From contig QHYZ01000068.1 in assembly GCA_003225295.1 (NCBI GenBank), positions 1 to 64,000 on the forward strand: 64,000 nucleotides of DNA, written 5' to 3'. Numbering within the stretch: position 1 is the first letter of the stretch; each line of letters begins with the position of its first letter. The notes beneath the pieces are model-generated. The model worked only from the letters and a program-made list of their open reading frames with translations. It did no database searches and was not told the DNA's origin. Below are positions 20,526 to 57,683 of the stretch, one piece after another. This stretch comes from Acidobacteriota bacterium (lineage in GTDB: Bacteria; Acidobacteriota; Terriglobia; Acidiferrales; UBA7541). The translations under genes were made by a program, and so were the position numbers.

Positions 20526-23500
20526 CTACGGAGCCGTCGGCACCTCTCCGGGGATCATCAGAGAAATAACCAGCGGCTTCAGTTTGGCTTTTTCGAGCAA
20601 AGCATTGACCGCCGCCAGGTCGTCCTTTTGGAACCTAGCCCAGCGCGCCAGAGTCTCTTGCGCCGCTTCTTCCCACCCTTCGCTGGCCATCATGGCATCA
20701 GCAGCGGGCCCCATATCGGCGCTGTCCACGATGATCAAGAGTCCGGTGAGCGCCGCCGCAACCTTGGGAAGCGGCTCATGCTCCTTACTCGGAGCGGCAA
20801 GCCCAAACAGCATGAAATCGGCGTCGCTATCGGGCTCGACCGCCGCTTCCACCTTCTCTACCAGCCCCTGCAAGGCCGCCAGAAGTTCAGTGTTGGCACC
20901 CGCCTCCTTCCTGCATTTCTCGATTTGCTTTCGCAGGTCGCCGACCTGCTGCAACGCCAACGAGACTTCGCCCAATCTCGCAGCAAGCTTGGAGGCCAGG
21001 CCAAACTGCCGCACCATTGCGTCTTGCGGAGCTTTCACACGCGGGTCCAGCTTGATCGTCAGCGGTTGCGTGCTACTCTTGCCGTTCGCCGTGAGCTTCA
21101 CGGTGTAGTTGCCCGGCACTGCCAAAGGTCCGGCCGGTCCCCAGAAAGATCTGCGAACACCTTTCGGCAGCGCGTAACGAAGATCCCATACGAATCGGTG
21201 CATTCCGGCCTCGGCCAAAAGAGGTTTCGGGTCGCGCAGCCAGTGGAATTGAAACTGCACGTCATTTGGGTTGGTCTTGTGCAATTCGTCGTTGCTCGCA
21301 AATCGTCGCACCAGCTTTCCTTCCGAGTCGAAGACCTCCAATTGGATGGGTGACGCGGCTTTGTCCTTCAGGTAATAATCCAGCACAGATCCTTCCGGCG
21401 GGTTCGGAGCCAAAGCCTCATCCATCGGCACCGGGGTGCCTTGATCTGATGCCGGCCGCATGCGGGTGGCGGTCTGCGGACGAAAGAGCCACGCATCGGC
21501 GGCGGCGACATGCGAGTCGATCTGCCGCAGCGGCGTCACATCGTCCAGTATCCAAAACGAGCGGCCAAACGTGGCAATCACCAAATCGTTTTCATGCACT
21601 ACTAGATCACGCACCGACGTTACCGGCAGATTGAATTGCAAGGGCTGCCAATCGTCACCGTCATTGAAAGAAGTGTAGACGCCCTTTTCCGTGCAGGCGT
21701 ACAGGAGCCCTTTTCGAGCAGGATCTTCCCGCACGCAGTTCAGAAAGCTCCCTTCGGGAATCCCATTCGAGGCGTGTTGCCAGGTCTTGCCGAAATCCCG
21801 CGTGCGATAGAGGTAGGCCTGATAGTCCTCCAGCCGGTGCCTGTCGACGGCTGCGTACGCCGTCCCCGCATCGGAATGCGACGCTTCGATGTGCGCCACT
21901 TTGCTCCAGGGCGTCAAATCCGGCGGGGTAACGTTCTCCCAGGTTTTCCCTTCGTCTTGCGTCAGTTGAATCAGGCCATCGTCCGTGCCTGCCCAGATTT
22001 CTCCAGCCCGCACAAACGACGGTCCAATCGTGTAGATCACACCGCGGCGTTTGCCCTTAGGAGCGTCCGCAGCCGTTGCCGCGTCCAGATTTGGCGGCAC
22101 ACCGGGATCTTCGCGTGTGAGATCAGGGCTGAGCGCTTGCCAGGAGCTGCCGCCGTCCGCCGTTCGGAACAAAACTTGTGAGCCGAAGTACAGCACATGT
22201 GGATCGATCGGCGAAAAAACAAGCGGCAGCGTCCACGTGCGCCGGTAATCGCCGGAATGCGCAAGTGTAGGCGGCAGTTGCTGCAGCTGCTCGTCGCCGA
22301 AATCCTGGCGCGCCACAAAGCCGCCGAACACCACGCCAGGACTTAGTGGGTCCGGGGCGACGTAGCCATTTTCATCCCCAGCGTCCATCGGCCGCCAATC
22401 GTGGAAATTTAACGAACGGTATCTGCTTCGGCTTGGAGTGGACGCCGAACCGCTATCCTGCTGCGCACCGTACACCCAATACGGAAACTGGTTATCCGTC
22501 ACGACGTGATAGAACTGCGCGGTTGGCTGGTTGTACCAAGAACTCCACGTCACACCGCCGTTGCGCGTCACGATGGCCCCTTGGTCGCTGCTGAGAATCA
22601 TACGCCGGGGCTCATCGGGATCAATCCACAGTTCGTGGTAGTCGTCGCCACCGGGCGCCCCCTTGAACGCCGTAAATGTCTTTCCTCTGTCCCGTGATTG
22701 GTAGGTCGACGTGTTCGGGACGTACACGATGTCAGGGTTTTGGGGATCAACGCTGACCTCTCCGAAATACCATCCGCGCTGCCAGATGCGGCGGTCATTC
22801 GAAACGCGCTGCCAACCCTGCCCACCGTTGTCAGAACGATAGAGCCCGCCCTCCTTGGCGTCCACGATCAGATAAATCCGCCGCGGATTGCTTGGCGCAA
22901 AAGCAATCCCGATCCGTCCGAGACCTTCCGATGGCAATCCCTGAGCGGTCAGATGTTCCCAATGGTCGCCCCCGTCAGTGGAGCGATACAAGCCGCTGCC
23001 CGGTCCGCTGGAAGGGGCGTAAATACTCCACGGCGGCCTGCGGGTCTGCCACAGAGCGGCAAGAATCGTTTTCGAATTTCCCGGTTCGAACGCCAGATCG
23101 ATTGCTCCTGTGTTATCGTCGTGAAAGAGAATTTTTTGCCAGCTCTTTCCGCCGTCCTTCGAACGGAAGACGCCTCGCTCCTGGTTCGACCCGTAGGCAT
23201 GACCAAGCGCAGCGACGAAAACTCTGTTCGGGTCCCGCGGGTCCACGAGGATCCGCCCGATCTGCCGCGAATCATCCAGCCCGATATGCGCCCAGTTCTT
23301 GCCGCCGTCCGTGGACTTGTACATTCCATTCCCGCAAGAAATCGAGGAGCGCATGTCGGCTTCTCCCGAGCCGGCGTAAATGAAGTTCGAATCCGACGGC
23401 GCAACGGCGATCGCTCCAATCGATGCAATCGGCTGCGAATCGAAGACCGGATTCCACGTTCGCCCCGCGTCGTCAGTCTTCCAAATTCCGCCGCCCACGC

Positions 23501-23711
23501 TTCCGAAATAGTAAACTTCCGGCTGCCCGCGCACGCCCACCACTGCAAGCGTGCGCCCCCCGCGAGATGGCCCGATCATCCTCCACCGCAGCTCCTGAAA
23601 GAGTTTAGCGTCGAAGTGCTGCGAAGTCTGCGGCGAGGCAGCCAGCCGCGAGGTACCATCTAGGGCTAAGAGCACAAATAACGACAAGGCAGCGAGATGT
23701 CGCGGTTTCAC
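20526..23711 (-). CDS. Giant secreted BNR/VPS10-type beta-propeller protein (copy A)
   Basis: 1,061-residue exported protein. A signal peptide (LAALSLFVLLALDG) is followed by a long array of Asp-box repeats of the form S-x-D-G-G-x-x-W (for example KSTDGGKNWAHIG and RSTDGGDHWEHL), typical of sialidase/sortilin propellers. The last 300 residues form a separate beta-sandwich plus helical region with QPLTIKLDPRV. It shares the WRMIGPSRGGRT start and PTAQFYHV core with three other copies in this window. No sialidase catalytic residues could be assigned, so binding rather than hydrolysis is plausible. The GTG at 23711 with GGGAG upstream is chosen because it begins directly at the signal peptide. 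Function unknown. Confidence 0.82.
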   Translation of the reverse strand: MKPRHLAALSLFVLLALDGTSRLAASPQTSQHFDAKLFQELRWRMIGPSRGGRTLAVVGVRGQPEVYYFGSVGGGIWKTDDAGRTWNPVFDSQPIASIGAIAVAPSDSNFIYAGSGEADMRSSISCGNGMYKSTDGGKNWAHIGLDDSRQIGRILVDPRDPNRVFVAALGHAYGSNQERGVFRSKDGGKSWQKILFHDDNTGAIDLAFEPGNSKTILAALWQTRRPPWSIYAPSSGPGSGLYRSTDGGDHWEHLTAQGLPSEGLGRIGIAFAPSNPRRIYLIVDAKEGGLYRSDNGGQGWQRVSNDRRIWQRGWYFGEVSVDPQNPDIVYVPNTSTYQSRDRGKTFTAFKGAPGGDDYHELWIDPDEPRRMILSSDQGAIVTRNGGVTWSSWYNQPTAQFYHVVTDNQFPYWVYGAQQDSGSASTPSRSRYRSLNFHDWRPMDAGDENGYVAPDPLSPGVVFGGFVARQDFGDEQLQQLPPTLAHSGDYRRTWTLPLVFSPIDPHVLYFGSQVLFRTADGGSSWQALSPDLTREDPGVPPNLDAATAADAPKGKRRGVIYTIGPSFVRAGEIWAGTDDGLIQLTQDEGKTWENVTPPDLTPWSKVAHIEASHSDAGTAYAAVDRHRLEDYQAYLYRTRDFGKTWQHASNGIPEGSFLNCVREDPARKGLLYACTEKGVYTSFNDGDDWQPLQFNLPVTSVRDLVVHENDLVIATFGRSFWILDDVTPLRQIDSHVAAADAWLFRPQTATRMRPASDQGTPVPMDEALAPNPPEGSVLDYYLKDKAASPIQLEVFDSEGKLVRRFASNDELHKTNPNDVQFQFHWLRDPKPLLAEAGMHRFVWDLRYALPKGVRRSFWGPAGPLAVPGNYTVKLTANGKSSTQPLTIKLDPRVKAPQDAMVRQFGLASKLAARLGEVSLALQQVGDLRKQIEKCRKEAGANTELLAALQGLVEKVEAAVEPDSDADFMLFGLAAPSKEHEPLPKVAAALTGLLIIVDSADMGPAADAMMASEGWEEAAQETLARWARFQKDDLAAVNALLEKAKLKPLVISLMIPGEVPTAP

Positions 23712-39018: not shown

Positions 39019-42000
39019 ATGCGAATCGAGAAGTGGTTTGTCGTTGAAGTCGTCACCACAGCTTTTTTTTGTACTTCTCTATGCACTTCGGCGAACGCGC
39101 AGCAGTTCGAGCAGAAGCTTTATTCCGAGATGCGCTGGCGTTGTATTGGGCCGTTTCGCGGAGGCCGCACTGTTGCCATCTCCGGCGTGCCGCACCAACC
39201 CAACGTGTTCTACATGGCCGCTGTCAACGGCGGTGTCTGGAAGACCACCGATTTCGGAAACACCTGGAATCCGATTTTCGACGACCAGCCAACCGGCTCC
39301 GTCGGCGCGCTTGCCGTTGCTCCGTCCGATCCGAACATCATCTACGTCGGCAGTGGCGAAGGATTGCAACGCCCCGATCTCGCCACCGGCGATGGCGTGT
39401 ACAAATCAACCGACGCAGGAAAATCCTGGACGCACCTCGGCCTCCGCGACGCCCAGCAAATCACGGCGATACTTATCGACCCGAAGGATCCCCAACGCGT
39501 TTTCGTCGCCGCTGAAGGACATCCCTACGGTCCCAACACCGAACGCGGCGTTTTCCGTTCCACCGACGGCGGGCAGTCCTTCCAACAGGTTCTTTACAAG
39601 GGGGAAAACACCGGCGCCGCCGAACTTGCTTTCGATCCCACGAATCCGCAAACGATTTACGCCGTGTTGTGGGCCGCGCGCGTTGCACCGTGGGAGATTC
39701 GCAGCGGCGAATCGTTCATCAGCGCGGGAAGCGGCCTCTACAAATCCACCGATGGCGGAAGCAATTGGCGCCAACTCACGAAAGGCCTCCCCGCGGCGGA
39801 TGATGGTCTGGGCCGCATGGGCATTGCCGTTTCGCACAGCTTGCCGAACCGCGTTTATGCGAACGTGGAGGCAAAGAAAAATGCTGGCGTCTACCGCTCC
39901 GATGATTCCGGCGAATCGTGGAGACAGGTAAACGCCGACCGTCGCATCGGTGGCCGCGGCCCGGGTGCAGCGGGCATCGCCGTTGCGCCGGACAACTCGG
40001 AGGTCATCTACGTTGCAAACACCACGACGTGGAAGTCGGCCGACGGCGGAAAAACATTTCTGGGATTCAAAGGCGCGCCCGGCGGCGACGATTACCAGCG
40101 CATTTGGATCAGCGCGGAAAATCCTCAGATTATCGCGCTCAGCTCCGATCAGGGTGCGGTCATCAGCGTAAACGGCGGTGCTACGTGGAGCAGTTGGTAC
40201 AATCAGCCAACTGCCCAGTTCTATCACGTTACGACCGACAATCGTTTTCCCTATGGGGTTTACGGCGCGCAGCAGGAAAGCGGATCCGTCGCGACGCAAA
40301 GCCGTAGCGATTATGGCGAAATTACTTTTCGCGATTGGCATCTCATTGGGATCTTTGAGTACGGATATATAGCGGTCGACCCGCTCGATCCGAACATTCT
40401 TTATGGCGACTGGCTCACGCGCACGAAGCAGGATATCGGCGAGTACGCCAAGGTTACACCGGAGCCAATTCGCCGCGGCGAGTATCGCTATACGCGCACG
40501 CTGCCGGTGGTGTTCTCGCCGCTCGAACCGCATACGCTGTACTTCGCGGCCAACGTGCTTTTCAAAACGACCGATGCGGGAAACAGTTGGCAAGCCATCA
40601 GTCCCGATCTCACGCGCGAATTCTATGAGATCCCCGCGAATCTCGGGGTTTTCGCCGCGAGTGATCCGGAGAAAGGAAAGCACCGCGGCGTTATCTACGC
40701 TGTCGCTCCTTCGTTCAAAGAGATTGACACCATCTGGGCGGGCACCGATGACGGGTTAATTCACATCACGCGCGATGGGGGCAAGACCTGGCAGAATGTC
40801 ACGCCGCCGCAGCTCAAGCCGTGGAGCAAAGTCTCCATCATCGAAGCCTCGCACTTCGATGCGGGGACGGCGTACGCTGCGATTAACTCGTTCCGGCTCG
40901 ACGATCTGCGCGCGCACATTTATCGCACGCGCGATTTCGGCAAGACGTGGACGGAAATCACAAAAAATATTCCCGATGGCGGCGCCAGCAACGTAGTGCG
41001 CGAAGATCCGGTTCGAAGAGGTTTGTTGTTCGCCGGAACGGAAGGCTCCGTCTACGTTTCCTTCAACGACGGAGACGATTGGCAGCCGCTACAGCTCAAT
41101 CTGCCGCACACTTCCATGCGCGATCTCGCGATTCATGGCGACGATCTGATCGTCGCCACGCACGGACGGTCGTTCTGGATTCTTGATGACATCACGCCGA
41201 TTCGGCAAATGAACACTGAAATTCCCAAGGAAAGTGTGCATCTCTTCGCACCGCAAGAAGCGATTCGGTTCCGCTGGAATCGAAATCCGGACACGCCGCT
41301 GCCACCGGAAGTTCCTGCAGGGAAAAATCCCCCAGACGGCGCCATCATCGATTACTACCTGACGAACGCGGCAAAAGCGCCGGTCAAGCTCGAAATCTTT
41401 GACGCGCAGGATCATCTCGTGCGGCGCTATTCCGGCTCGGATAAACCCGAGCCTCTGGAAAAAACCGCCAGCGAGCATCCCATTCCGATGTATTGGGTTC
41501 GCCCGGCGCCGCTTCTTTCCGCGGGCGAGGGGATGCACCGTTTTGTCTGGGACCTTCACTACGCGCCGCCGGATTCTCTTGGACATGAATTTCCGATCTC
41601 GGCGATCGTGCATGACACGCCAAAATATCCGCTGGGAGCGTGGGCACTACCCGGGAACTACACAGCGAAGCTCACGGTTGATGGGAAAAGCTTTTCTCAG
41701 CAGTTCGTCGTGAAAATGGACCCGCGCATCAGAGCTTCGTTGATCGATCTGCGCAAGCAGTTTGAAATGCAGAGCGGTGCCGTCGAAGGAATGAACAAGA
41801 GTTTCGGAGCGCTCTTGCTGGTCCGATCGGTGCGCACTCAATTGAAGGAGCGCTCCGCGAAAGCAGGGAAAGGGACTCTTGTCGATACGATGGCCGCTCT
41901 TGACAAGCAAGCTGCGGAACTGGAAGGCGCGGCGCAGAGCAATTTCTTCGGCTTGCCGCCCGGCGCGAAGCGACCGGAGGATTTTTCCAGCTTGAACCAG

Positions 42001-42246
42001 CATTTCGGCGGCATTCTGGCGGTTGCAGACAGCGCCGATGCCGCACCCACAGCGCAAGCCACCGCCGTCTTCAAGGAACTCCAAGAGGATCTTGAGAGAC
42101 TCGCCGAGCGCTGGACAAGAATCCGGCAGCAGGATATTCCAGCGCTAAACGCGGATCTCCAGAAGGCCGGACTTGCTCCCGTCGATCCGAACAAGTCACC
42201 CGATGCCGCTCCTTTCGCCGACGCGGATGGAGACGACGAACCATGA
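39019..42246 (+). CDS. Giant secreted BNR/VPS10-type beta-propeller protein (copy B)
   Basis: 1,075-residue exported protein. A signal peptide ends near TSANAQQ. At least ten Asp-box repeats follow (for example STDAGKSWTHLG, STDGGQSFQQV, SADGGKTFLGF, TRDGGKTWQNV), consistent with two stacked propellers as in sortilin/VPS10 proteins. GRSFWILDDITPIRQ marks the end of the propeller; a beta-sandwich with LPGNYTAKLTVDG and a helical C-terminus follow. The C-terminal 30 residues are acidic. The ATG has GGAGG at 6 bases. Copy C starts 34 bases downstream, so the two are probably one transcript. Enzymatic activity is unproven. Confidence 0.85.
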   Translation: MRIEKWFVVEVVTTAFFCTSLCTSANAQQFEQKLYSEMRWRCIGPFRGGRTVAISGVPHQPNVFYMAAVNGGVWKTTDFGNTWNPIFDDQPTGSVGALAVAPSDPNIIYVGSGEGLQRPDLATGDGVYKSTDAGKSWTHLGLRDAQQITAILIDPKDPQRVFVAAEGHPYGPNTERGVFRSTDGGQSFQQVLYKGENTGAAELAFDPTNPQTIYAVLWAARVAPWEIRSGESFISAGSGLYKSTDGGSNWRQLTKGLPAADDGLGRMGIAVSHSLPNRVYANVEAKKNAGVYRSDDSGESWRQVNADRRIGGRGPGAAGIAVAPDNSEVIYVANTTTWKSADGGKTFLGFKGAPGGDDYQRIWISAENPQIIALSSDQGAVISVNGGATWSSWYNQPTAQFYHVTTDNRFPYGVYGAQQESGSVATQSRSDYGEITFRDWHLIGIFEYGYIAVDPLDPNILYGDWLTRTKQDIGEYAKVTPEPIRRGEYRYTRTLPVVFSPLEPHTLYFAANVLFKTTDAGNSWQAISPDLTREFYEIPANLGVFAASDPEKGKHRGVIYAVAPSFKEIDTIWAGTDDGLIHITRDGGKTWQNVTPPQLKPWSKVSIIEASHFDAGTAYAAINSFRLDDLRAHIYRTRDFGKTWTEITKNIPDGGASNVVREDPVRRGLLFAGTEGSVYVSFNDGDDWQPLQLNLPHTSMRDLAIHGDDLIVATHGRSFWILDDITPIRQMNTEIPKESVHLFAPQEAIRFRWNRNPDTPLPPEVPAGKNPPDGAIIDYYLTNAAKAPVKLEIFDAQDHLVRRYSGSDKPEPLEKTASEHPIPMYWVRPAPLLSAGEGMHRFVWDLHYAPPDSLGHEFPISAIVHDTPKYPLGAWALPGNYTAKLTVDGKSFSQQFVVKMDPRIRASLIDLRKQFEMQSGAVEGMNKSFGALLLVRSVRTQLKERSAKAGKGTLVDTMAALDKQAAELEGAAQSNFFGLPPGAKRPEDFSSLNQHFGGILAVADSADAAPTAQATAVFKELQEDLERLAERWTRIRQQDIPALNADLQKAGLAPVDPNKSPDAAPFADADGDDEP

Positions 42247-42280
42247 ACGGGACCGCACTGGAAATTCGACAGGCGCCCAA

Positions 42281-45200
42281 ATGAAGAGTTTACGTATGTT
42301 TCGAATTCTCTTTTTTGCTTTTACGGTCCTGTGGTCCGCGGGATTTGCGATGGCTGTAATCGACCGCGCACAGCAGATTCCAGAATCGCTCTATTCCGAA
42401 ATGAAATGGCGAATGATCGGGCCATTTCGCGCGGGAAAGGTGAACGCCGTGGCCGGTGTGCCGGGAAATCCCGGTGTCTATTATTTCGGGGCGAATGGCG
42501 GAGGCGTCTGGAAGACGACTGACGGCGGCACGGTGTGGAAGCCAATTTTCGATGAAGAACCGGTGGCGTCCATTGGGGCGCTGGCACTTGCTCCTTCGAA
42601 TCCGAACATCATTTACGTGGGAAGCGGAGAAAACAATCTCTATGCCGACATCACGTATGGAAATGGCATGTACAAATCCATTGATGCGGGAGCGACGTGG
42701 CAACATCTCGGACTTGAGGACACACGTCATATCGCACGCATCCTGGTAGATCCTCGAAACCCGGATATCGTGCTGGTGGCAGCCATGGGCCACAGCTTTG
42801 GGCCGAACAAAGAGCGCGGCGTTTTCCGTTCAGCCGATGGTGGACGAAACTGGAAGAAGGTTTTGTACAAGGACGACGTTACAGGTGCAGTGGATCTTAG
42901 TTTCGAACCGGGGAATCCACGCGTGGTTTACGCGACGCTGTGGCATGGCATCCGCAAGCCGGGACACAAGGGAACTTCGTTTGGTCCCGGCAGTGGGCTC
43001 TACAAGTCAGCAGACCAAGGCTTGACGTGGACACAGATCACGGGACACGGTCTACCGACGGGGGACTGGGGCCGGTCTGGCGTTGCGGTGGCCCCCGGAA
43101 ATCATGGGCAACGCGTTTACCTGATTCTGGAAGCCAACGAAAAAGACGGGGGTCTCTATCGTTCCGACGATGCGGGAGCAACCTGGAAGAAAGCCACGGA
43201 GGATCGCCGCATCCAAGGGTATTGGTACATGAGCGAGGTTTTTGCAGACTCGAAAAACCCCGATGTGGTGTATGTGCCTTCGCAAAATCTATACCGTTCG
43301 ACGGACGGCGGGCATACCTTTACTGCCATCAAGGGCGCACCTGGTGGCGACGACTACCACACCGTGTGGATCGATCCGACAAATTCGCAACGCATCATGC
43401 TGGGTGTCGACCAGGGCGCGACGATCAGCCTCAACGGAGGCCAGTCCTGGAGCACGTGGTACAACCAGCCAACGGGGCAATTTTATCGGCTCGCGACAGA
43501 TCACCGGTTTCCTTACTGGGTGTATGGGCCGCAACAGGACAGCGGCACAGCGGGCATCGCCAGCCGCGGAAACAATGGACAGATCACGGAGCGTGATTGG
43601 CTCCCAGTCGGCCCAGGAGAGAGCGGTTACACAATCCCCGACCCGCTAGACGCGGATGTGATCTATAACGCGGGTCCGGGTGGCAGCGTCGTGCGATTGT
43701 CAAAAATCACAGGGCAGGTGCGGGATATTTCCCCAGCGCCGGTCTCGTTTGGCAGCAAGTACCGTTTCAACTGGACGATTCCGCTGGTTTTTTCGCCGCA
43801 AGATCCACATCTGCTTTATCTCGGGACGCAGTTTCTCTTGAAAACGACGGATGCAGGGACTAGCTGGCAGGCCGTGAGTCCCGATCTCACGCGTACGCGC
43901 GCCGCGGAAAAAGATTCGAAACAGGTGCTTGGCACAGTCCTGACGATTGCGCCTTCAGAGATCAAGGAGGGTCTCATTTGGGTTGGGACGGATGACGGGA
44001 ATGTCCAACTCACGAAGGACGGCGGAGCGACGTGGCAGAACGTCACGCCGACGGGCGTATCGGAGTGGAGCACGGTGAGCATTATTGAATCTTCGCACTT
44101 CGATCCCGGTACGGCCTATGCGGCGGTGAATCGAAACAGTCTCGACGATTTGCACCCGCACATTTTTCGGACGGGCGACTTTGGAAAGACGTGGCAGGAA
44201 ACGGTTAACGGCATTGGCGACGACGATTTTGTCCGCGTGGTGCGCGAGGATCCGGTGCGCCAGGGGTTGATGTACGCGGGGACGGAACGAGGAGCGTACG
44301 TTTCGTTTGATGGCGGAGATCATTGGCAATCGCTCCGGCTGAACATGCCGGTAGTGGCCATCCACGATCTGGCCATCGAGCAGGATGACCTAGTGGCCGC
44401 GACGTATGGCCGGTCGTTCTGGATTCTCGACGATGTCACGCCGCTTCGCCAGGCGGATGCGCGGGTAGCATCTTCTGGCGCGCATCTCTTTGCGCCACGA
44501 ACCGCCATCCGTGTGCGCCGCGATGAGAATCAGGACACGCCGCTGCCGCCGGAAGTTCCTGCGAGAAAAAATCCTCCCGATGGCGCCATCCTGAATTACG
44601 TTTTGCCGGCCAATACTGCCGGAGACATTCAACTGGAAATTTACGACGCGGATGAAAAGCTGGTGCGGAGTTTTTCCAGCGTGCCTGCGCCAAAAGAACC
44701 AGAGGAAACTCCCTTCGTGGCGGAGTACTGGATCGGACATCCCCAAGCGCTTTCGAAAGCAGCCGGAATGCACCGTTTTGTTTGGAATCTGCGCGATCCC
44801 GATCCGCGCGCTCTGCACGCGCAGTCTCCTTACAACTATCCGATCGCGGCGATTGTGGGCTCGACGCCGCTGCCGCCGCAGGGACCACTGGTGCTGCCGG
44901 GGAAGTATGAGGTGCGGCTGAACGTGGGGGAACAGGTCTTTCGCCAACCGCTGGAAGTCAAGATGGATCCGCGGGTGGTGGCGGCGCGCAACGAATTGCA
45001 GAGTTCCCTGGAGTTGCAACTGAAAATCTCCGCGTTGCTCGAGAAAAACTTTGTCGGCTACCAGCAAACGAAGGTATTGCGCGGACGCCTGACCGAATTG
45101 ATGAAGCGTCCCAAGGAAGACGCGATTGCCGTTGCGGCCGACGCGCTGGACGCGAAAATCGCCGCGCTGCAAGGGGAAGCGACACCGATCCTGGAGACAC

Positions 45201-45460
45201 CGAAGACGGCCAGTCTCATGGTGGTGAACGATACCTTGACGGCGCTGATGGCGCTGGTGGATGGAGCGGACTTCGCGCCATCAGAAGAATCATTTGCAGC
45301 GTATCGGCGCATCTGCAAGGGTTCGAACGAAGCTCTTGCGGCCTGGCAGGAACTGAAGAACAAAGACGCCGCCGCGCTGAACAGCATGCTGGAGAAAAGC
45401 AATCTCGCGGCGCTGCCCGAGGTACCCGATCTAGCTGCCGATACGGCTTGCGGAGACTGA
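42281..45460 (+). CDS. Giant secreted BNR/VPS10-type beta-propeller protein (copy C)
   Basis: 1,059-residue tandem paralog of copy B. A signal peptide (FRILFFAFTVLWSAGFA) leads into ESLYSEMKWRMIGPFRAGKV, the same opening as copies A and B. Asp boxes include SIDAGATWQHLG, SADGGRNWKKV, SADQGLTWTQI and TKDGGATWQNV. The domain boundary motif GRSFWILDDVTPLRQ, the LPGKYEVRLNVG sandwich strand and the helical tail are conserved. It has no strong ribosome binding site, which fits translation as the second gene of a B-C transcript. Codon choice looks like that of its neighbours, so recent transfer is not indicated. Confidence 0.85.
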   Translation: MKSLRMFRILFFAFTVLWSAGFAMAVIDRAQQIPESLYSEMKWRMIGPFRAGKVNAVAGVPGNPGVYYFGANGGGVWKTTDGGTVWKPIFDEEPVASIGALALAPSNPNIIYVGSGENNLYADITYGNGMYKSIDAGATWQHLGLEDTRHIARILVDPRNPDIVLVAAMGHSFGPNKERGVFRSADGGRNWKKVLYKDDVTGAVDLSFEPGNPRVVYATLWHGIRKPGHKGTSFGPGSGLYKSADQGLTWTQITGHGLPTGDWGRSGVAVAPGNHGQRVYLILEANEKDGGLYRSDDAGATWKKATEDRRIQGYWYMSEVFADSKNPDVVYVPSQNLYRSTDGGHTFTAIKGAPGGDDYHTVWIDPTNSQRIMLGVDQGATISLNGGQSWSTWYNQPTGQFYRLATDHRFPYWVYGPQQDSGTAGIASRGNNGQITERDWLPVGPGESGYTIPDPLDADVIYNAGPGGSVVRLSKITGQVRDISPAPVSFGSKYRFNWTIPLVFSPQDPHLLYLGTQFLLKTTDAGTSWQAVSPDLTRTRAAEKDSKQVLGTVLTIAPSEIKEGLIWVGTDDGNVQLTKDGGATWQNVTPTGVSEWSTVSIIESSHFDPGTAYAAVNRNSLDDLHPHIFRTGDFGKTWQETVNGIGDDDFVRVVREDPVRQGLMYAGTERGAYVSFDGGDHWQSLRLNMPVVAIHDLAIEQDDLVAATYGRSFWILDDVTPLRQADARVASSGAHLFAPRTAIRVRRDENQDTPLPPEVPARKNPPDGAILNYVLPANTAGDIQLEIYDADEKLVRSFSSVPAPKEPEETPFVAEYWIGHPQALSKAAGMHRFVWNLRDPDPRALHAQSPYNYPIAAIVGSTPLPPQGPLVLPGKYEVRLNVGEQVFRQPLEVKMDPRVVAARNELQSSLELQLKISALLEKNFVGYQQTKVLRGRLTELMKRPKEDAIAVAADALDAKIAALQGEATPILETPKTASLMVVNDTLTALMALVDGADFAPSEESFAAYRRICKGSNEALAAWQELKNKDAAALNSMLEKSNLAALPEVPDLAADTACGD

Positions 45461-45594
45461 GGCTAATTTCTCACTTTCTCATCTCACTGGAAGCTTCCAA
45501 CTCTCTCCAATAGGATGGCCACCCTCCAGAATACGGCAACGTCGAACCTGCAGGATCTTAGTTAGCCGCATGTCTGCAACGAAATGTGGATCAG

Positions 45595-45617
45595 CTGAGA
45601 CCCTTCGCTTCGCTCAG
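45595..45617. repeat. REP-like imperfect palindrome
   Basis: CTGAG and CTCAG arms surround CCCTTCGCTTCG and are followed by GATAACA. The CCTTCGCTTCGCTCAGGAT type of sequence resembles intergenic REP-like elements seen in many environmental genomes. It is in the gap between BNR copy C and the peroxiredoxin gene; only one clear copy was noticed in this window. Confidence 0.35.
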
Positions 45618-45732
45618 GATAACAATGGCCGGATTAGCCTTAAGAGCAGGCGCTTTCGTCGGGAGAAAGCCGGGCGAGCAGGATCACCACCGGAGCATTT
45701 CGCTTGCCCGAGGACGCCGGAAAATGACGCAC

Positions 45733-46287
45733 CTACCTTACGTCTGGAGGCTGCTGGAGTTGCGACAGATCCGCCAAGACCTCGGCGCTGTGCTTTTCGG
45801 CGTTCACGTTGAGATAGGTCTTGCGAACGATGCTATGGGGATCGATGAGAAAGGTATGGCGCGCGGAAAGCTTGGCGACCCCCAGGTTCATCAACGAGTC
45901 GTACGAGGATGAGACCTGATGGTTTGTATCCGCGAGCAGCCTGAAGCCGAGACCTTCTTTGGCGCAGAACTTCTGGTGAGTGGTTTCATCCTGAACACTC
46001 ACGCCGAGGATGATCGCGTTTTTCTCCTCATATTGCCGGAGGTCGCGCTGGAAATTGTGTGCTTCTTTGGTGCACCCGCTGGTGAAGTCCTTGGGATAGA
46101 AATAGAGCACCACCCATTTGCCGCGGAGGTCGTGCAGACGGAGAGCTTTTCCATCCTGCGAATTCAGCGTAAAGTCCGGCGCGGGCGTCCCTGAGGAGGG
46201 CGCTTTGCCTCCGGTGCGCATGGCGCGGACGACGACGATTCCGATGAACAGAACGATGATAGCTACGAAGATTCCAATCATTTTCAT
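45733..46287 (-). CDS. Membrane-anchored peroxiredoxin (Bcp/PrxQ family)
   Basis: 184-residue thiol peroxidase. An N-terminal transmembrane segment (residues 4-20) anchors it, with the thioredoxin-fold domain (about 35-180) presumably outside the cytoplasm. The peroxidatic cysteine is Cys72 in DFTSGCTKE. The usual Bcp resolving cysteine five residues later is absent; Cys108 in HQKFCAKEG is a candidate resolving residue, as in the other PrxQ subtype. It would reduce hydroperoxides using thioredoxin-like partners. It lies 46 bases downstream of the pagL-like gene on the same strand and may be co-transcribed with it. Confidence 0.88.
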   Translation of the reverse strand: MKMIGIFVAIIVLFIGIVVVRAMRTGGKAPSSGTPAPDFTLNSQDGKALRLHDLRGKWVVLYFYPKDFTSGCTKEAHNFQRDLRQYEEKNAIILGVSVQDETTHQKFCAKEGLGFRLLADTNHQVSSSYDSLMNLGVAKLSARHTFLIDPHSIVRKTYLNVNAEKHSAEVLADLSQLQQPPDVR

Positions 46288-46333
46288 CTCGCATACTCAC
46301 CTCTGGTGTTGCACTGGACACGCTGCGCAGTGG

Positions 46334-46918
46334 CTATTCCTTTTGGCTGAACAGACCGAAGCCTAAGCGAAACTGAATGGTATTAATACCTGGATTTGGC
46401 GTTGCAAGCCCAGCGTTCGAAATATGCATGTAGCGGACTTCCGCGCTGAGGTTGCGCTTGCTGCGCAGGAAGTGGAGGCCGGCTGCGCCGCTGGTGGTGA
46501 AATTGATGCGGGATGTTCCTTCGGGCACCTTGGTATTGGTAAAGAGAGTGCCGCCGCCAAGTTCGAGATACGGAACCACGCTGCTGTGCGTGTCCAGCGC
46601 CCATTTGAACGCGAAAGGGTTTATGCCAACGCCGTAGGCGGTGTTCGTTTTCTGAGCAACCATGAAGACCGGAACGGCATCCACGGCATATTCCAAGCGG
46701 CCGCGCAGGAATCCAGGTCCGTGCGGCGCAGTGAGGATCAATCCGTAGCGGAAGCCCGCATTCCATACTCCGTCGCCGGATTGGCTGCCATTGATTCCGC
46801 GGCCACCGCCGGTCCACACCTGCAACTCATGGCCGCCCTCGACGGGGCCGGCTTGCGCGCGAACTGCGGGCGCGTTGAGGAACATGGCAAAGAGGACGGC
46901 CGTTAATACTCTTCTCAC
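46334..46918 (-). CDS. pagL: PagL-like lipid A 3-O-deacylase
   Basis: 194-residue outer-membrane enzyme. A signal peptide (LTAVLFAMFLNAPAVRAQ) precedes a small beta-barrel. The catalytic His-x-Ser motif is His165 and Ser167 in RYMHISNAGL, followed by NPGINTIQFRLGF, matching the C-terminal signature of PagL/acyloxyacyl hydrolase-like proteins. It would remove the 3-O acyl chain from lipid A and alter the outer leaflet. Starts with GTG at 46918 after AGGAG. The presence of this gene implies an LPS-bearing outer membrane. Confidence 0.82.
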   Translation of the reverse strand: MRRVLTAVLFAMFLNAPAVRAQAGPVEGGHELQVWTGGGRGINGSQSGDGVWNAGFRYGLILTAPHGPGFLRGRLEYAVDAVPVFMVAQKTNTAYGVGINPFAFKWALDTHSSVVPYLELGGGTLFTNTKVPEGTSRINFTTSGAAGLHFLRSKRNLSAEVRYMHISNAGLATPNPGINTIQFRLGFGLFSQKE

Positions 46919-47013
46919 AGAGGGCGCTCCTTCCAGTTCTTTGATTCCCGCCGCCGCGGTCTTGGTGCTGAGAAGATATAGAAAACTGGTTCGAAAGGCG
47001 ACTCCCTTCTACT

Positions 47014-47190
47014 CTATTCGAGGTAAGTGCAGACGATGTGGATGACATCGTCGGCAGCTTCTTCCGAGGATTTGGAATTGCGAGGCATGTGGTCGCGGAT
47101 GTGGTCTTCGATCAGCTCGGCCATGAGGCTGTTGATGGCGCCGCGGGCGGCGGAGAGATTGCTGGCCAAGAGCCTTGGGAATTCCGGCAT
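47014..47190 (-). pseudogene. C-terminal remnant of a CsoR/FrmR/RcnR-type metal/formaldehyde regulator
   Basis: This 58-codon frame contains SAARGAINSLMAELIEDHI followed by DDVIHIVCTYLE, which aligns by eye with the C-terminal two helices of RcnR/FrmR-type repressors (the IRGAVNGLM and DVVLKVLDSY segments). The N-terminal helix with the RIEGQ-like motif and the invariant cysteine is missing; a Pro stands where the Cys should be. An in-frame TGA lies directly upstream of the ATG, and the sequence beyond it becomes the porin leader. It is most simply a truncated gene, although a short peptide could be made. Confidence 0.6.
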
Positions 47191-47263
47191 TGTTCATGCG
47201 GTGGTAACCACTCCAGGCTTATCTTGGGCGGCGGCAGTAGCTGACGAATCCAGGGGACAAACA

Positions 47264-48742
47264 ATGTCCAGAAGTTTTTTGTGTTTGCCTTGGTATTTGC
47301 GGGTTGGAGCTGCCTGGCTGGCTATCCTGGCGGTTTCTCCGGCCGTGCACGCACAAGAAGCATCTGTTCCGGGACCTCCGATTCCGATCGCTGCTCCCGA
47401 AGAGACAACGGAAGACGATGCAGTCCCGGCGATGTTTGCACATCCGGAGACGGACCGCTGGTGGATTTCGGGCCAGGCGAATTGGATCTCGCAGTGGCAT
47501 CCCGCGTTTCATTCTCCTTATGAGGGACCGCGAAGCCTGTCTCCACAAGCGCAGGATGCCACTTCACGCGTGCTCACCCTATTTACGGGCGTGCGTTTCA
47601 CGAATACAAACGAACTGCTCTGTGATGTTCAGGAAACCGGCGGCCATGGAATCGGCGAGGCCGTCGGCCTGGCGGGTGTCACGAATCTGGACATCGTACG
47701 AAACCCCGATCTAAGCAAAGCGCCTTACCTGGCTAGACTCATATGGCACCACATCATTCCTCTGGGGCGCAAGAAAATCGACAGCTCCCGTTCGCCGCTC
47801 TCACTTTTTTCCTTGCTTCCCGAGCGCAGGCTGGAAATCCGCTTCGGCAAGTTCAGTTTGGCGGACTTCTTTGATACCAATACTTACGGCACCGACACCA
47901 CTTTTCAGTTCATGAACTGGACCGTGGATAACAACGGCGCGTACGACTATGCGGCGGACACGCGAGGATTCGCGTTTGCGACGATGCTCGAGTATCACGA
48001 GCGACGCTGGGCGGTACGCTTTGCGGAAGCCTTGATGCCGAAAGTGGCCAACGGCATTCACCTCGATGCGGACATGAGCCGAGCCCGCGCAGAAAATGTG
48101 GAATTCGAACTGCACGGCACGATGCTTCGACATCAAGCAGGAACTATCCGCTTCCTGAGTTTCATCAATCGCGCCAACATGGGCAGCTACCGCGAAGCGG
48201 TCGACGGTTTTCTCTCAGGTCTGACTCTCAAACCCGATATCACCGCGCATCCACTCCATACCACGATCAAGTATGGATTTGGCTTGAATTTTGAACAGCC
48301 GCTGAATGGTTGGGTGGGCGCGTTTGGCAGGTGGGGGTGGGACGAGGGCCGGCATGAGTCGTTTGCCTATACGGAAGTGGATCAGACAGTGGAAATTGGC
48401 TTGGGCGGCAAAGGCAAGCCGTGGCATAGAAAATTCGACCACGCGGGACTGGTATTTGTTTCGAACGGTATCTCGCGAGACCACCAGGAATATCTCGCTC
48501 TCGGTGGTTCCGGTTTTCTTCTCGGCGACGGCCGTCTCAATTACCGCCGCGAGAACATTATCGAGACTTATTACACGCTGCATGTTTGGCGGGGACTTTA
48601 TCCTTCGTTTGGCCTGCAGCACATCAACAATCCTGGCTACAACCAAGACCGGGGGACCGCTAGTCGTGCCCACCATGCGGCTCCATCTCGAGTTCTGAAT
48701 ACCGGAAACTCCTTGGCAGCAGACCAAAAGTCTGCTAACTAA
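47264..48742 (+). CDS. OprB-family carbohydrate porin
   Basis: 492-residue exported outer-membrane protein. A signal peptide (VGAAWLAILAVSPAVHAQ) is followed by WWISGQANWISQWHPAFHSPYEGPRSL-type sequence (described in part), the entry motif of OprB-family sugar porins, then a barrel of about 400 residues and a non-barrel tail. ATG 47264 has AGGGGA 8 bases upstream. It probably allows diffusion of sugars or other small solutes across the outer membrane. It directly adjoins the decayed metal-regulator frame on the other strand. Confidence 0.82.
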   Translation: MSRSFLCLPWYLRVGAAWLAILAVSPAVHAQEASVPGPPIPIAAPEETTEDDAVPAMFAHPETDRWWISGQANWISQWHPAFHSPYEGPRSLSPQAQDATSRVLTLFTGVRFTNTNELLCDVQETGGHGIGEAVGLAGVTNLDIVRNPDLSKAPYLARLIWHHIIPLGRKKIDSSRSPLSLFSLLPERRLEIRFGKFSLADFFDTNTYGTDTTFQFMNWTVDNNGAYDYAADTRGFAFATMLEYHERRWAVRFAEALMPKVANGIHLDADMSRARAENVEFELHGTMLRHQAGTIRFLSFINRANMGSYREAVDGFLSGLTLKPDITAHPLHTTIKYGFGLNFEQPLNGWVGAFGRWGWDEGRHESFAYTEVDQTVEIGLGGKGKPWHRKFDHAGLVFVSNGISRDHQEYLALGGSGFLLGDGRLNYRRENIIETYYTLHVWRGLYPSFGLQHINNPGYNQDRGTASRAHHAAPSRVLNTGNSLAADQKSAN

Positions 48743-48834
48743 GTGCTGCTCGTTTAATCCGAGTCATCAAATGTTGGCCTTTTAGATCCCTTCCGTTTGG
48801 GGTGTTGCCACTTAACGTTGGGTTGGGGGGAGTA

Positions 48835-49638
48835 ATGAAAGTAGATTTGCGAGTGACTCCGTTTATGGAGTTCACCAGGGTGGTCCGTTTTTTCTTTCCG
48901 GTATTGGCGACCATCGTATTCTTTTCTTTCGCTGCCAGCGCACAAACGGTTGATGAGGTCATCGCCAAGAATATTCAGGCGCATGGTGGACTCGACAAGC
49001 TGAAGGCCGTGCGCAGCATGCGCACCACGGCAAGGTTCAGCCAAGGTTCCTTTCGCGCCGAATTTCGTCAGGAAAACAAGCGCGCCGACAAGGTTCGAGA
49101 AGAATTAATCATTCAAGGGCTGGCGCAGGTGCAGGCCTACGACGGCAAGACGGGATGGCAGATCTCACCTTTCGGTGGGCGCAAAGATCCGGAGCTACTC
49201 TCCCAGGACGACCTGAAAAGCTTGGTCGTGGACGCCGATATCGATGGGCCTCTGGTGGAGTACAAAGAGAAGGGCCACAAGGCCGAACTCGTGGGGCACG
49301 ACTCGATGGAAGGAACGGATTGCTTCAAAATCAAGCTGAGCATGAAGAACGGAGACGTGCGCTACTACTACCTCGATGCCGACTCGTTTCTCGAGTTGAA
49401 GCTGGAAATTCAAACTACGATTCGCGGCGCGCTGCAGGAGAACGAGCTGTACTACGGCGACTACGAACTGGTAAACGGCATCTATTATCCATTCGCCGTC
49501 GAGCAAGCGCAAAAAGGCAGCGCGTCACGTGCGCAAATCTCCGTTGAAAAGATCGAACAAAACGTACCGCTGGAAGACGCACATTTCTCGATGCCGGTCT
49601 CCAAACCGGAGACCAAGGCGCCGCCGGCCGGAAAGTGA
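48835..49638 (+). CDS. Outer-membrane lipoprotein-sorting-like (LolA/LolB-fold) protein
   Basis: 267-residue exported protein. A signal peptide (FFPVLATIVFFSFAASAQ) is followed by VDEVIAKNIQAHGGLDKLKAV, a recurrent start of LolA-like domain proteins in this type of organism, and a single open beta-barrel of about 210 residues (YYYLDADSFLELKLEIQT). The C-terminus is Pro/Lys-rich. Such proteins bind lipids or acyl chains in the periplasm; the ligand here is unknown. GGGGGAG precedes the ATG by 3 bases. It is probably co-transcribed with BNR copy D, whose start is 82 bases downstream. Confidence 0.72.
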   Translation: MKVDLRVTPFMEFTRVVRFFFPVLATIVFFSFAASAQTVDEVIAKNIQAHGGLDKLKAVRSMRTTARFSQGSFRAEFRQENKRADKVREELIIQGLAQVQAYDGKTGWQISPFGGRKDPELLSQDDLKSLVVDADIDGPLVEYKEKGHKAELVGHDSMEGTDCFKIKLSMKNGDVRYYYLDADSFLELKLEIQTTIRGALQENELYYGDYELVNGIYYPFAVEQAQKGSASRAQISVEKIEQNVPLEDAHFSMPVSKPETKAPPAGK

Positions 49639-49720
49639 TTCTCTGCCGCACGAAAATTCATGGATGGGACTTACACCAAAGAGCCGTGGTTTCTACTTTA
49701 TCGCTGAGGAATCCGCCAAT

Positions 49721-52700
49721 ATGCGCAAATCAATCCGCTGCTTTGCTGCCGTGATGATGGTGTTTCTCGCTACGATGATTATTGCTGGGCCCGCGCCCGC
49801 CCAAGACACCAAATTCGATTCGGACACGATTTCCGGTCTCGGTGCGCGAAACATCGGCTCCGCCTCCATGAGCGGGCGCGTGGCCGCGATTGCGGCAGTA
49901 AAAGAGGACGGACGGCTGACGGTCTATATTGGTGCGGCCAGCGGCGGCGTCTGGAAATCTTCGAACGGCGGCACCACGTTCAAGCCCGTTTTCGATAAGG
50001 AAGCCGCGCAGTCCATTGGCGCCATCACCATTGATCCGCAAGCGCCGAAAACGATCTGGGCCGGCACGGGCGAAGCCTGGACACGTAACAGTGCGTCCAT
50101 CGGCACTGGCATCTACAAGTCGACGGATGGCGGCGACAGCTGGACCAACATGGGTCTGCAGAATTCTGAACGTATTGCGAAAATTATTGTCGATCCGAAG
50201 AACAGCAGTACCGTTTACGCCTGCGTGCCTGGAAAACTGTGGAGCGACAGTGAGGACCGCGGGGTCTACAAAACTACCGACGGCGGCAAGGGCTGGAGCA
50301 AGATTCTCAAAGGCGCGAATCTCTCGACCGGCTGCTCGATGATTTCCATGAATCCGCAAGACCCCAACGTCATTTTCGCGGGCATGTGGGACTTTCGCCG
50401 GAAGGGATGGACGTTCCGTTCGGGCGGTGAGAATCCCACCGCGCCCAGCGGCAGCGGTTTTTTCCAGACCACCGATGGCGGAAGCACCTGGAATGAGCTG
50501 GATGAAAAGAGCGCCAAAGGGCTCCCTGCGAAACCCTGGGGGCGCGTTGCCGTCACGATTGCCCCGGCAAAACCAAATGTTGTGTACGCTATGATCGAAT
50601 CGACTCGCAGCGCTCTTTTCCGCTCCGAAGATGGCGGCAAGACGTGGGAAGAGCGAGACCGCAGCAATTGGATGGTCTGGCGGCCGTTTTACTTCGCCAA
50701 CCTGATCGTCGATCCGAAAAACGAGAACAAGGTTTACAAGCCGGACCTCACATTGATTGTGAGCGAGGATGGCGGCAGAAGCTTCAGCGTGATCGGGAAC
50801 GGCGCACACGGGGATTTCCATGATGTCTGGGTGAATCCCGACAATAGCGATCATGTCATCGCCGGCGATGACGGAGGCGTTTGGTATTCCTACGACGGCG
50901 GCAATACCTGGTGGAAGGGCAACAACCTTCCCATCTCGCAGTTCTATCACGTGAGCGCGGACAACGCCGATCCTTACCACGTATTCGGCGGATTGCAGGA
51001 CAACAGCGTGTGGATCGGGGACTCACAGTATCCGGGCGGAATTACCAACGGCCGCTGGGAAAATATTTTTGGAGGGGATGGGTTCTGGGTATTTCCGGAT
51101 CCCGCCGACGCGAACTACGTTTACGCCGAATCACAGGGCGGCGAGATCGGTCGAGTGAATCGATTCACACTCGAGGCCCGGCTCATCAAGCCGCAACCCA
51201 ATTACGGGGAAGGGAAGTTGCGTTTCAACTGGAACACTCCGATCCACATGAGCCCCAATGAGAAGGGCACGATTTACATCGGCGCACAATTCCTGTTCCG
51301 CTCCCGCGACCACGGTCAATCGTGGGACCGCATCTCGCCAGATCTCACTACGAATGACCCGCAGAAACAAAAACAGGAAGAATCCGGCGGCGTAACTGTC
51401 GACAATTCCTATGCGGAGATGCACACCACGATCTACTCCATCAGCGAGTCGCCGCGCGATGGTCAAACCATCTGGGTTGGAACCGATGACGGAAATCTCC
51501 AACTGACGCGCGATGGCGCCAAGTCCTGGACCAATGTCGTCGGCAATATTCCGAATCTGCCGAAAGCCTCGTGGGTTTCGTGGGTGGAAGCGAGCCTCTA
51601 TGATGCGGGTACCGCTTATGCAACGTTCGATCGGCATACGTTTGGAGATATGGGGCCTCACGTCTTCAAGACCACGGACTACGGGAAGACCTGGACGCCG
51701 ATCGTAGTCGCAGACAGCGGTGTGCGCGGCTATGCGCATGTCATCAAGGAAGACTCGCTGGTGCCCAATCTGCTCTTCCTGGGAACCGAATTCGGTCTCT
51801 GGATTTCACTGGATAGCGGTAAACACTGGGCGCAATACAAAGGTCACGAATTCCCCAACGTAGCTGTCCGAGACATCGTGGTGCACCCGCGCGAATCGGA
51901 TCTGGTGGTGGCCACCCATGGCCGCGGCATTTGGGTCGTGGACGACATCACGACGTTGCGTAAGCTGACTCCCGAAGTCATGGCGCAAGAAGCTGTTTTC
52001 CTCCGGGCCAAGCCCGCGCAGCAGCGGCTCCCGGCCAATGGCGGCTGGGCGGAAGGAAGCGCAGTGTTCACCGGGCCCAATCCACCGGACGCGGCGCTGA
52101 TTACCTACTACCAGAGCAAGCGTCACATTTTTGGGAAAATGAAACTGGAGATTTTCGATTCCCAGGGCCAGCTGGTGGATACCCTCCCTCCGAACAGCCG
52201 CCGCGGCATCAGCCGCGTGGAGTGGCCCATGCGCCTTAAGGCGCCCCACGTTCCTCCCGCCGCCACGGCTGCGTTTGAAGCGAACCAGGGCCCCAGAGTT
52301 TTGCCCGGCACCTACACAGTGAAAATGACGCGCGGGAAAGAGACCTACACCACGCAGCTTGTCCTGGAACTTGATCCGCGTGCTAAGTTCTCGATGGAAG
52401 ATCGCAGACTGGAATTCGACGCAGCGATGCGCGCCTACCGACTGCTCGGGGAGATGAGCTTCCAAGTCGATCGCATCAACGGCGTTCACGACGCACTCAT
52501 GGAGCGCGGCACAAAACTGAAGGGAGACCCCGCCTTCGGCAAGAGGCTACAGGAACTCGCCGGCAAAGTGGAAGCCATGCGAAAGAAGATCGTGGCCACG
52601 ACGGAAGGAGGAGCCATCACCGGTGAGGAGCGAATCCGTGAAAAAACGACGCAACTTTACGGCGTCATCTTGAACTATGAAGGCCGTCCAACCGACTATC

Positions 52701-52918
52701 AGATCGCGCGCATCGATTCGTTGAAGAAAGAACTGGAAAAAGTGGCCGGTGAATTTGATGCCGTTGTTACCAAGGAGCTTCCCGCCGTGAACAAAACACT
52801 CTCGCAGAAAAAACTGGAAGCCATCCAGCCGATGGACCGCAAAGCCTGGGATGTCGCGAACAGCGATTCGGAAGAAGGGGCCCGCACTGGCGGCGCTGCC
52901 TTGCATGAACGCGATTAA
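49721..52918 (+). CDS. Giant secreted BNR/VPS10-type beta-propeller protein (copy D)
   Basis: 1,065-residue exported protein, the most divergent of the four copies. The signal peptide ends near IIAGPAPAQ. Asp boxes include SSNGGTTFKPV, STDGGDSWTNMG, TTDGGKGWSKI, SEDGGKTWEE and TRDGAKSWTNV. GRGIWVVDDITTLRK replaces the GRSFWILDD motif of the other copies; LPGTYTVKMTRG and a helical C-terminus follow. ATG 49721 has GAGGA about 10 bases upstream. It lies downstream of a LolA-like gene rather than next to peptidases. Function unknown. Confidence 0.85.
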   Translation: MRKSIRCFAAVMMVFLATMIIAGPAPAQDTKFDSDTISGLGARNIGSASMSGRVAAIAAVKEDGRLTVYIGAASGGVWKSSNGGTTFKPVFDKEAAQSIGAITIDPQAPKTIWAGTGEAWTRNSASIGTGIYKSTDGGDSWTNMGLQNSERIAKIIVDPKNSSTVYACVPGKLWSDSEDRGVYKTTDGGKGWSKILKGANLSTGCSMISMNPQDPNVIFAGMWDFRRKGWTFRSGGENPTAPSGSGFFQTTDGGSTWNELDEKSAKGLPAKPWGRVAVTIAPAKPNVVYAMIESTRSALFRSEDGGKTWEERDRSNWMVWRPFYFANLIVDPKNENKVYKPDLTLIVSEDGGRSFSVIGNGAHGDFHDVWVNPDNSDHVIAGDDGGVWYSYDGGNTWWKGNNLPISQFYHVSADNADPYHVFGGLQDNSVWIGDSQYPGGITNGRWENIFGGDGFWVFPDPADANYVYAESQGGEIGRVNRFTLEARLIKPQPNYGEGKLRFNWNTPIHMSPNEKGTIYIGAQFLFRSRDHGQSWDRISPDLTTNDPQKQKQEESGGVTVDNSYAEMHTTIYSISESPRDGQTIWVGTDDGNLQLTRDGAKSWTNVVGNIPNLPKASWVSWVEASLYDAGTAYATFDRHTFGDMGPHVFKTTDYGKTWTPIVVADSGVRGYAHVIKEDSLVPNLLFLGTEFGLWISLDSGKHWAQYKGHEFPNVAVRDIVVHPRESDLVVATHGRGIWVVDDITTLRKLTPEVMAQEAVFLRAKPAQQRLPANGGWAEGSAVFTGPNPPDAALITYYQSKRHIFGKMKLEIFDSQGQLVDTLPPNSRRGISRVEWPMRLKAPHVPPAATAAFEANQGPRVLPGTYTVKMTRGKETYTTQLVLELDPRAKFSMEDRRLEFDAAMRAYRLLGEMSFQVDRINGVHDALMERGTKLKGDPAFGKRLQELAGKVEAMRKKIVATTEGGAITGEERIREKTTQLYGVILNYEGRPTDYQIARIDSLKKELEKVAGEFDAVVTKELPAVNKTLSQKKLEAIQPMDRKAWDVANSDSEEGARTGGAALHERD

Positions 52919-56624: not shown

Positions 56625-56801
56625 GAAGGCATTCTATCCCAGACTTTTCCTTGGGCCCCAGGCCTGCCCATCCGATGCAAATTAGTATGAAGCTGACTGA
56701 TAAACGACCTGCCCAGGATTCGTCTTGCTTCCTGCCGGCGTGGACGGCTAATCTTAAAGGCTTGTGCACCGTCCCAAGGCTGCCGTCGAAGGAGCGTTCA
56801 C

Positions 56802-57683
56802 ATGGCCACGACCGTCTGGAAAGGCCACCTCACCTTTGGCCTGATTTCGATGCCCGTCCGCATGTTTGCCGCCGCCCGCGGTGAACGAATCAGTTTCAAC
56901 CAGCTCCACAAGCAGTGCCATTCGCGTCTCAAGCAGCCCCTGTTTTGTCCCGTCTGCAATCGCAACGTGGAACGGTCCGAAATTGTGAAGGGCTATGAAT
57001 ACGAAAAGGACCAGTACGTCTTGTTCAACGAAGAAGAACTCGACAAGATCGAGCCCTCCTCGGCGCGCGTGATGGAGATTCTGGAGTTCGTGAAGCTGGA
57101 TGAGATGGATCCGCTGTACTTCGATTCCTCCTATTACCTCACGCCGGAAGACGCCGGGGTGAAAGCTTATCAACTGCTGATGAAGGCTATGGAGGAGTCC
57201 GGATACGGAGCCATCGCGAAGCTCACCATGCACCAGCGCGAACACATCGTGATTGTCCGGCCAGGGACTAAGGGCATGACGCTGCATACGATGTTTTATT
57301 CCAATGAGATTCGCGCGGCGGAGTCCGTTCCGACTGACAAGATCGAAGTGAAAGAACAGGAAAAGAAGCTGGCGCGACAACTTATTGAAAGTCTTGCGGC
57401 TCCCTTCGAGCCACAAAGATATCGGGACGAGTATCAAGAGAATGTGCGGGCGATGATCGCTGCCAAGCTCAAGGGCCAGGAGGTAACCGAAGTTGCCCAG
57501 CCGCATATGGCTCCGGTGATTGATTTGATGGAGGCCCTCAAGAAAAGTCTCGCGGAAAAGCAAGCCCCGGCTGCGGCGGCCGCACCCGCAGCGCCAGTGC
57601 CGGTGGGCAAGAAACCTCCAACTCGAGCCGTGCAACCGATCTCATCGGTGCAGAAAAAGGCAGGAAAGAAGGCCACCGGTTAA
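56802..57683 (+). CDS. ku: Ku homodimer DNA end-binding protein
   Basis: 293-residue bacterial Ku. WKGHLTFGLISMPVRMF is the conserved N-terminus; FCPVCNRNVERSEIVKGYEYEK and the central DNA-encircling bridge region follow. The C-terminal 45 residues are a low-complexity Ala/Pro/Lys tail that in other Ku proteins aids DNA binding and LigD recruitment. AAGGAG lies 8 bases before the ATG. It works with the divergent ligD. A MerR-TPR gene begins 6 bases after the stop, so the two are expected to be on one transcript. Confidence 0.95.
   Translation: MATTVWKGHLTFGLISMPVRMFAAARGERISFNQLHKQCHSRLKQPLFCPVCNRNVERSEIVKGYEYEKDQYVLFNEEELDKIEPSSARVMEILEFVKLDEMDPLYFDSSYYLTPEDAGVKAYQLLMKAMEESGYGAIAKLTMHQREHIVIVRPGTKGMTLHTMFYSNEIRAAESVPTDKIEVKEQEKKLARQLIESLAAPFEPQRYRDEYQENVRAMIAAKLKGQEVTEVAQPHMAPVIDLMEALKKSLAEKQAPAAAAAPAAPVPVGKKPPTRAVQPISSVQKKAGKKATG

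Follow-up and report, generated by a model that had tools for sequence, protein, structure and literature searches.

Asp-box propellers are known from proteins of quite different functions. Sortilin has one 10-bladed propeller followed by a 10CC domain. Xyloglucanases of the GH74 family (Xgh74A 2cn3, ClGH74a 6p2m, OXG-RCBH 1sqj, NkGH74 6p2l) are secreted and have tandem 7-bladed Asp-box propellers. Ycf48/HCF136, which serves photosystem II assembly, and the dispase autolysis-inducing protein (DAIP) are single propellers that act on other proteins. The structure 3b7f, which we take to represent the YP_299179.1 family of an Asp-box survey (PMC2716378), is a 7-bladed Asp-box propeller of unknown function.

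The four proteins compared here with these systems, copies A to D, are encoded on one contig of the draft genome of a soil acidobacterium (8.1 Mb, 385 contigs), within the 64,000-nucleotide stretch of DNA that was analysed (hereafter the window), of which they span 32.4 kb (20526-52918; Table 1). All four ORFs are intact and unbroken and, counted from likely start sites, code for proteins of 1059-1075 aa; each opens with a signal peptide of the Sec type, as judged by eye, and the number of Asp boxes is 11, 11, 11 and 10 in A, B, C and D, for 0.10-0.16 (maximum 2) in composition-matched shuffles. The original prediction of four large, secreted BNR-type proteins in 32 kb is thereby borne out, and so is the claim of a constant length and junction motif, the latter reading GRSFWILDD in the first three copies and GRGIWVVDD in D, i.e. 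GR(S/G)(F/I)W in all four. The opening motif is WRMIGP or WRCIGP in A, B and C, for which it had been noted, and ARNIGS in D. Copy D stands furthest apart, with about 32% identity to A-C. Only 34 bases separate B and C, which are probably co-transcribed.

Table 1. Position of copies A to D, of the predicted domains of copy B and of the intervening gene blocks in the window
Feature	Coordinates	Strand	Remarks
Copy A, secreted tandem-propeller protein	20526..23711	-	GTG start, 1061 aa
Block between A and B	29261..38699		amino-acid permease, two S9 peptidases, M28 peptidase, AstE/AspA-type deacylase; kept in genus
Copy B, secreted tandem-propeller protein	39019..42246	+	1075 aa; signal peptide ~residues 1-27
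Copy B, two 7-bladed Asp-box propellers (predicted)	39136..41199	+	model DSSP; GH74 structures at Foldseek ranks 1-25
Copy B, Ig-like sandwich (mature 705-875) and four-helix tail (881-1022) (predicted)	41212..42165	+	model
Copy C, secreted tandem-propeller protein	42281..45460	+	~1059 aa; ORF opens 42173
Block between C and D	45733..49638		AhpC/TSA thioredoxin-fold protein, small ORF, OprB-type porin, LolA-like; kept in genus
Copy D, secreted tandem-propeller protein	49721..52918	+	~1065 aa; ORF opens 49529

The fold was predicted with AlphaFold for mature B alone (residues 28-1075, alignment of 58 sequences) and extended to A, C and D by alignment. In the model (mean pLDDT 90.2, pTM 0.90), 14 beta-meander blades, counted from DSSP strands, make up two 7-bladed propellers at about residues 13-700; an Ig-like sandwich and then four helices follow, as the sandwich-helical tail of the original prediction implied, and the final 13 residues are disordered. 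This Ig and helical tail is common to A-D. Modelled on its own, the B tail has a pLDDT of 88, and a fold search with it gave generic Ig-like matches only, with no convincing solved homologue. An extra fused domain, such as a carbohydrate-binding module, did not turn up in the long frames that were checked: for two much over-long frames of the family Pfam shows the propeller family only, and the frames inspected end in a tail of the usual type. A Foldseek comparison of the B model with the PDB placed GH74 structures at all of ranks 1 to 25, with target-based TM-scores of up to 0.59; scores of 0.3-0.6 mean either an arrangement of the propellers unlike that in GH74 or alignments shifted by whole blades. 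Sortilin gave 0.13-0.22, and sortilin and SorLA together ranked later, at 0.13-0.26. A search with the family profile gave the order GH74 (2.5e-23), DAIP (1.1e-9), sortilin (3e-6) and HCF136 (5e-6). From the comparison originally proposed, with sortilin, GH74 and photosystem-assembly propellers, GH74 therefore emerges as the best match by profile and by fold, sortilin as a poor one and HCF136 as a likeness at the level of the repeats; judged by the model, the scaffold of A-D is GH74-like.

The GG motif that GH74 has in its first blade loop is kept in the family, which differs from GH74 in its overall sequence (about 12-18% identity), in its tail and in having invariant loop residues of its own. 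In the HMMER alignments, mature position 42 falls on Asp35 of 1sqj and on the Asp for which the 2cn3 chain has Ala. We take the first GH74 catalytic Asp to be this Asp35, and Asp70 in full-length Xgh74A; in the family the column holds mainly N (29 sequences) or V (18), and Asp in only 1 of 58. The second catalytic Asp is Asp465 of 1sqj; entry 2ebs is titled a D465N mutant. Its site lies outside the HMMER alignments; by blade analogy, the place of the second Asp, in the blade that opens propeller 2, would be taken by the invariant Gln392, which is followed by D/E393. D550, in blade 11, aligns directly in HMMER with the GH74 catalytic Asp, as a paralogous blade, and D350 and E648 are, by register, at the position of the catalytic-Asp loop in other blades. 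As regards a canonical glycosidase active site, then, the GH74 fold is there and the first catalytic Asp is not conserved; a plain GH74 enzyme was rejected on account of this non-conserved Asp.

In mature B numbering, and counted over 65 rows, the conserved loop residues are E87 (64 rows), R149 (64), D350 (65), Q392 (65), D550 (60), D551 (63), E648 (63) and R690 (65); position 393 is D or E in all rows, and position 420 is kept as D or E, E420 being situated just before a strand A. Most of them are on B-C loops, i.e. on the top face, the same face as the GH74 catalytic Asp, and they are largely kept in paralogues of the same genome that are only 31-51% identical to A-D. Alignment and blade register put a conserved acidic cluster on the top-face loops, in line with the clustered acidic residues that the original prediction had named as support; these residues may form one pocket, and this pocket may be catalytic. 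The mean conservation of B-C loops does not significantly exceed that of the A-B loops on the other face (permutation p 0.09), so the conservation may be partly structural. One of the genome's own copies (C329, L060:8026-11340) has lost several of the loop residues, with R149 changed to H and D550-D551 to G-N; its pocket is perhaps out of use or altered in role.

The original prediction saw in the four copies a repeated expansion. Genome-wide, the family counts 11 full-length copies, plus one that is partial and lies where a contig ends, so that A-D, with seven full-length copies and the partial one located elsewhere, are not the whole set. The same genome also encodes a 758-aa Asp-box protein (L064:8032-10305), shorter than the family and with a distant likeness to GH74 6p2m (E 8e-13). 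Pairwise identity among the 11 copies is 31-75%, and each of the four has a deep branch of its own in the tree, B being closest to sequences from other phyla and D grouping with the C168 copy by a join that the program flags as possible long-branch attraction. Since they sit on separate deep branches, A-D are old paralogues and not the result of a burst, and a recent local expansion is ruled out by the tree and by a gene order conserved across the genus. The idea of one selected family fares better, since conservation is deep across genomes and phyla. With query P0002, the family was found in 34 of 41 genomes (this one and near relatives) and in 103 of 149 acidobacterial genomes with a completeness of at least 90%. 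A scan of GTDB contigs yielded at least 586 relatives, those kept being about 51-84% identical to copy B, mostly over the full length; they come from Acidobacteriota, Gemmatimonadota, Bacteroidota (Spirosoma, Flavobacterium, Chitinophagaceae) and Ignavibacteriota, and from other phyla as single MAG contigs. The nearest named relatives are MAGs of acidobacterial subdivision 2 ('gp2', Candidatus Acidiferrum typicum). Acidobacteria of soil and sediment carry from one copy to about a dozen per genome. Copies are also clustered in another phylum, as Flavobacterium sp. SUN052 (L143) has three adjacent members, two of them very divergent. In one acidobacterial genus (g17 of family f11), the genomes listed (G072, G083, G094, G122, G130 and others), mostly near complete, have no member at E 1e-40, although other f11 genera have several copies. 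A single in-frame stop is present in the copies of a few relatives (G014:C10:28426-31497, G010:C3:66444-69593 and others), which indicates that copy loss, or assembly error, occurs.

The order A, permease, S9 and M28 peptidases, AspA-type deacylase, B, C, AhpC, porin, LolA-like gene (a weak assignment, directly upstream of D) and D is conserved in several species of the genus, interrupted where an individual gene is absent or a contig stops. Clustering of the neighbours at 80 loci revealed no conserved operon partner, and Pfam analysis of 103 flanking genes (from greedy ORF calls, some of them spurious) no conserved neighbour outside the genus. The peptidases and the permease point weakly to peptides or glycopeptides in this genus and, as no neighbour recurs outside it, the link with peptide use is suggestive for this lineage only. 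The surroundings also include a serine/threonine protein kinase with a PD40 propeller, adjoining copy A (23786-26560), a 443-aa ORF without Pfam match between this kinase and a PBP-like fragment (27371-28702) and, divergent and just downstream of D, LigD (with phosphoesterase, ligase and primase-polymerase domains) and Ku, the bacterial non-homologous end-joining pair (54012-57683).

What the proteins do has to be weighed against the labels that databases give them. All four match Sortilin-Vps10 (PF15902) in Pfam, at 98.7-117 bits for a cut-off of 33, together with BNR fragments. A bacterial sorting receptor of the VPS10/sortilin type could be read from this, and the Asp-box repeats are indeed shared; however, the matches are repeated stretches of about 110-140 residues, the 14 blades form two rings instead of a single 10-bladed propeller, the TM-scores of sortilin are poor, and the mature proteins have only 1-4 cysteines each and hence lack a 10CC domain. 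We rejected such a receptor at the level of the fold; it is now most improbable, and the VPS10 label of the original prediction is a repeat-level artefact. A GH33 sialidase was rejected as well, because there are two 7-bladed propellers instead of one 6-bladed propeller and the RIP motif (F/Y-R-I-P) is missing: it occurs in none of the genome's 11 copies and in 1 of 98 sequences, which agrees, for this motif, with the earlier remark that no sialidase catalytic residues are visible. The best single-sequence match in the PDB, 3b7f, has 7 blades with Asp boxes as well, but one propeller and no tail. In NCBIfam, the top match of all four copies is the F510_1955 glycosylhydrolase (NF045728; 142.8-146.4 bits), yet all four miss its cut-off of 175 bits, and the model has only 246 positions. 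A true GH74 xyloglucanase or related endoglucanase would account for the 25 best fold matches and for the similar tandem-propeller architecture, but we consider it improbable given the predominance of N or V in the column of Asp35/Asp70, the invariant Gln392 where, by blade analogy, the second Asp is expected, and the lack of any glycosidase family above cut-off in NCBIfam or at all in Pfam.

Another possibility is a factor for the assembly or quality control of exported proteins, comparable to Ycf48/HCF136 or DAIP. Both are retrieved by the family profile, and the genes are solitary, with no conserved catabolic operon outside the genus; but the likeness is to single propellers at the level of the Asp box and 11 copies per genome are many, so that we regard this role as unlikely. 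Plain binding ranks next after a conserved chemistry and has a real, if minor, chance of being right: the cleft, exposed on the cell surface or within the periplasm, would capture peptides, glycans or envelope components and present them to peptidases or porins. The non-conserved GH74 Asp, the porin, peptidases and amino-acid permease kept nearby in the genus, and 11 paralogues that would fit a capture set are all in its favour, whereas the neighbours are not conserved outside the genus and identical cleft-face residues in remote paralogues would be odd if the ligands differ. The same charged residues in such paralogues argue for a shared chemistry rather than for mere binding of different ligands, and the reading that we tentatively prefer is that of a secreted protein whose GH74-like cleft has a conserved chemistry that is probably catalytic. 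The proteins would be exported by Sec, and each would comprise two 7-bladed propellers on a GH74-like scaffold, followed by the Ig-like sandwich and helical bundle; near-constant acidic, Arg and Gln loop residues would line the GH74 active-site face, from which at least the first GH74 Asp has gone. This top face would bind a polymer or oligomer and act on the bound ligand with its own chemistry, probably hydrolysis via relocated acids. Paralogues would owe different substrates to the loops that vary more. The variable tail may serve as an anchor or spacer at the cell surface or in the periplasm. A more specific form of the preferred reading, which we hold to be possible but doubtful, is a new hydrolase family with a GH74 scaffold, catalytic residues on other blades, a distinct tail and substrate-specific paralogues, widespread in Acidobacteriota, Gemmatimonadota and Bacteroidota with up to about a dozen paralogues per genome; its putative catalytic set would be E87, D350, D550/D551 and E648 with R149 and R690.

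In the literature searched, bacterial Sortilin-Vps10 proteins receive passing domain mentions only and no experimentally characterised member of the family was found, which accords with the original view that it has no accepted role. The family itself is known, widespread and ordinary in its distribution. It is common in soil and sediment acidobacteria and scores against models that take their names from a neuronal receptor or a glycosyl hydrolase. If it is enzymatic, it would add a new activity to those that turn over soil polymers, and with the residues listed here its function could be tested by a single structure and a few point mutants.
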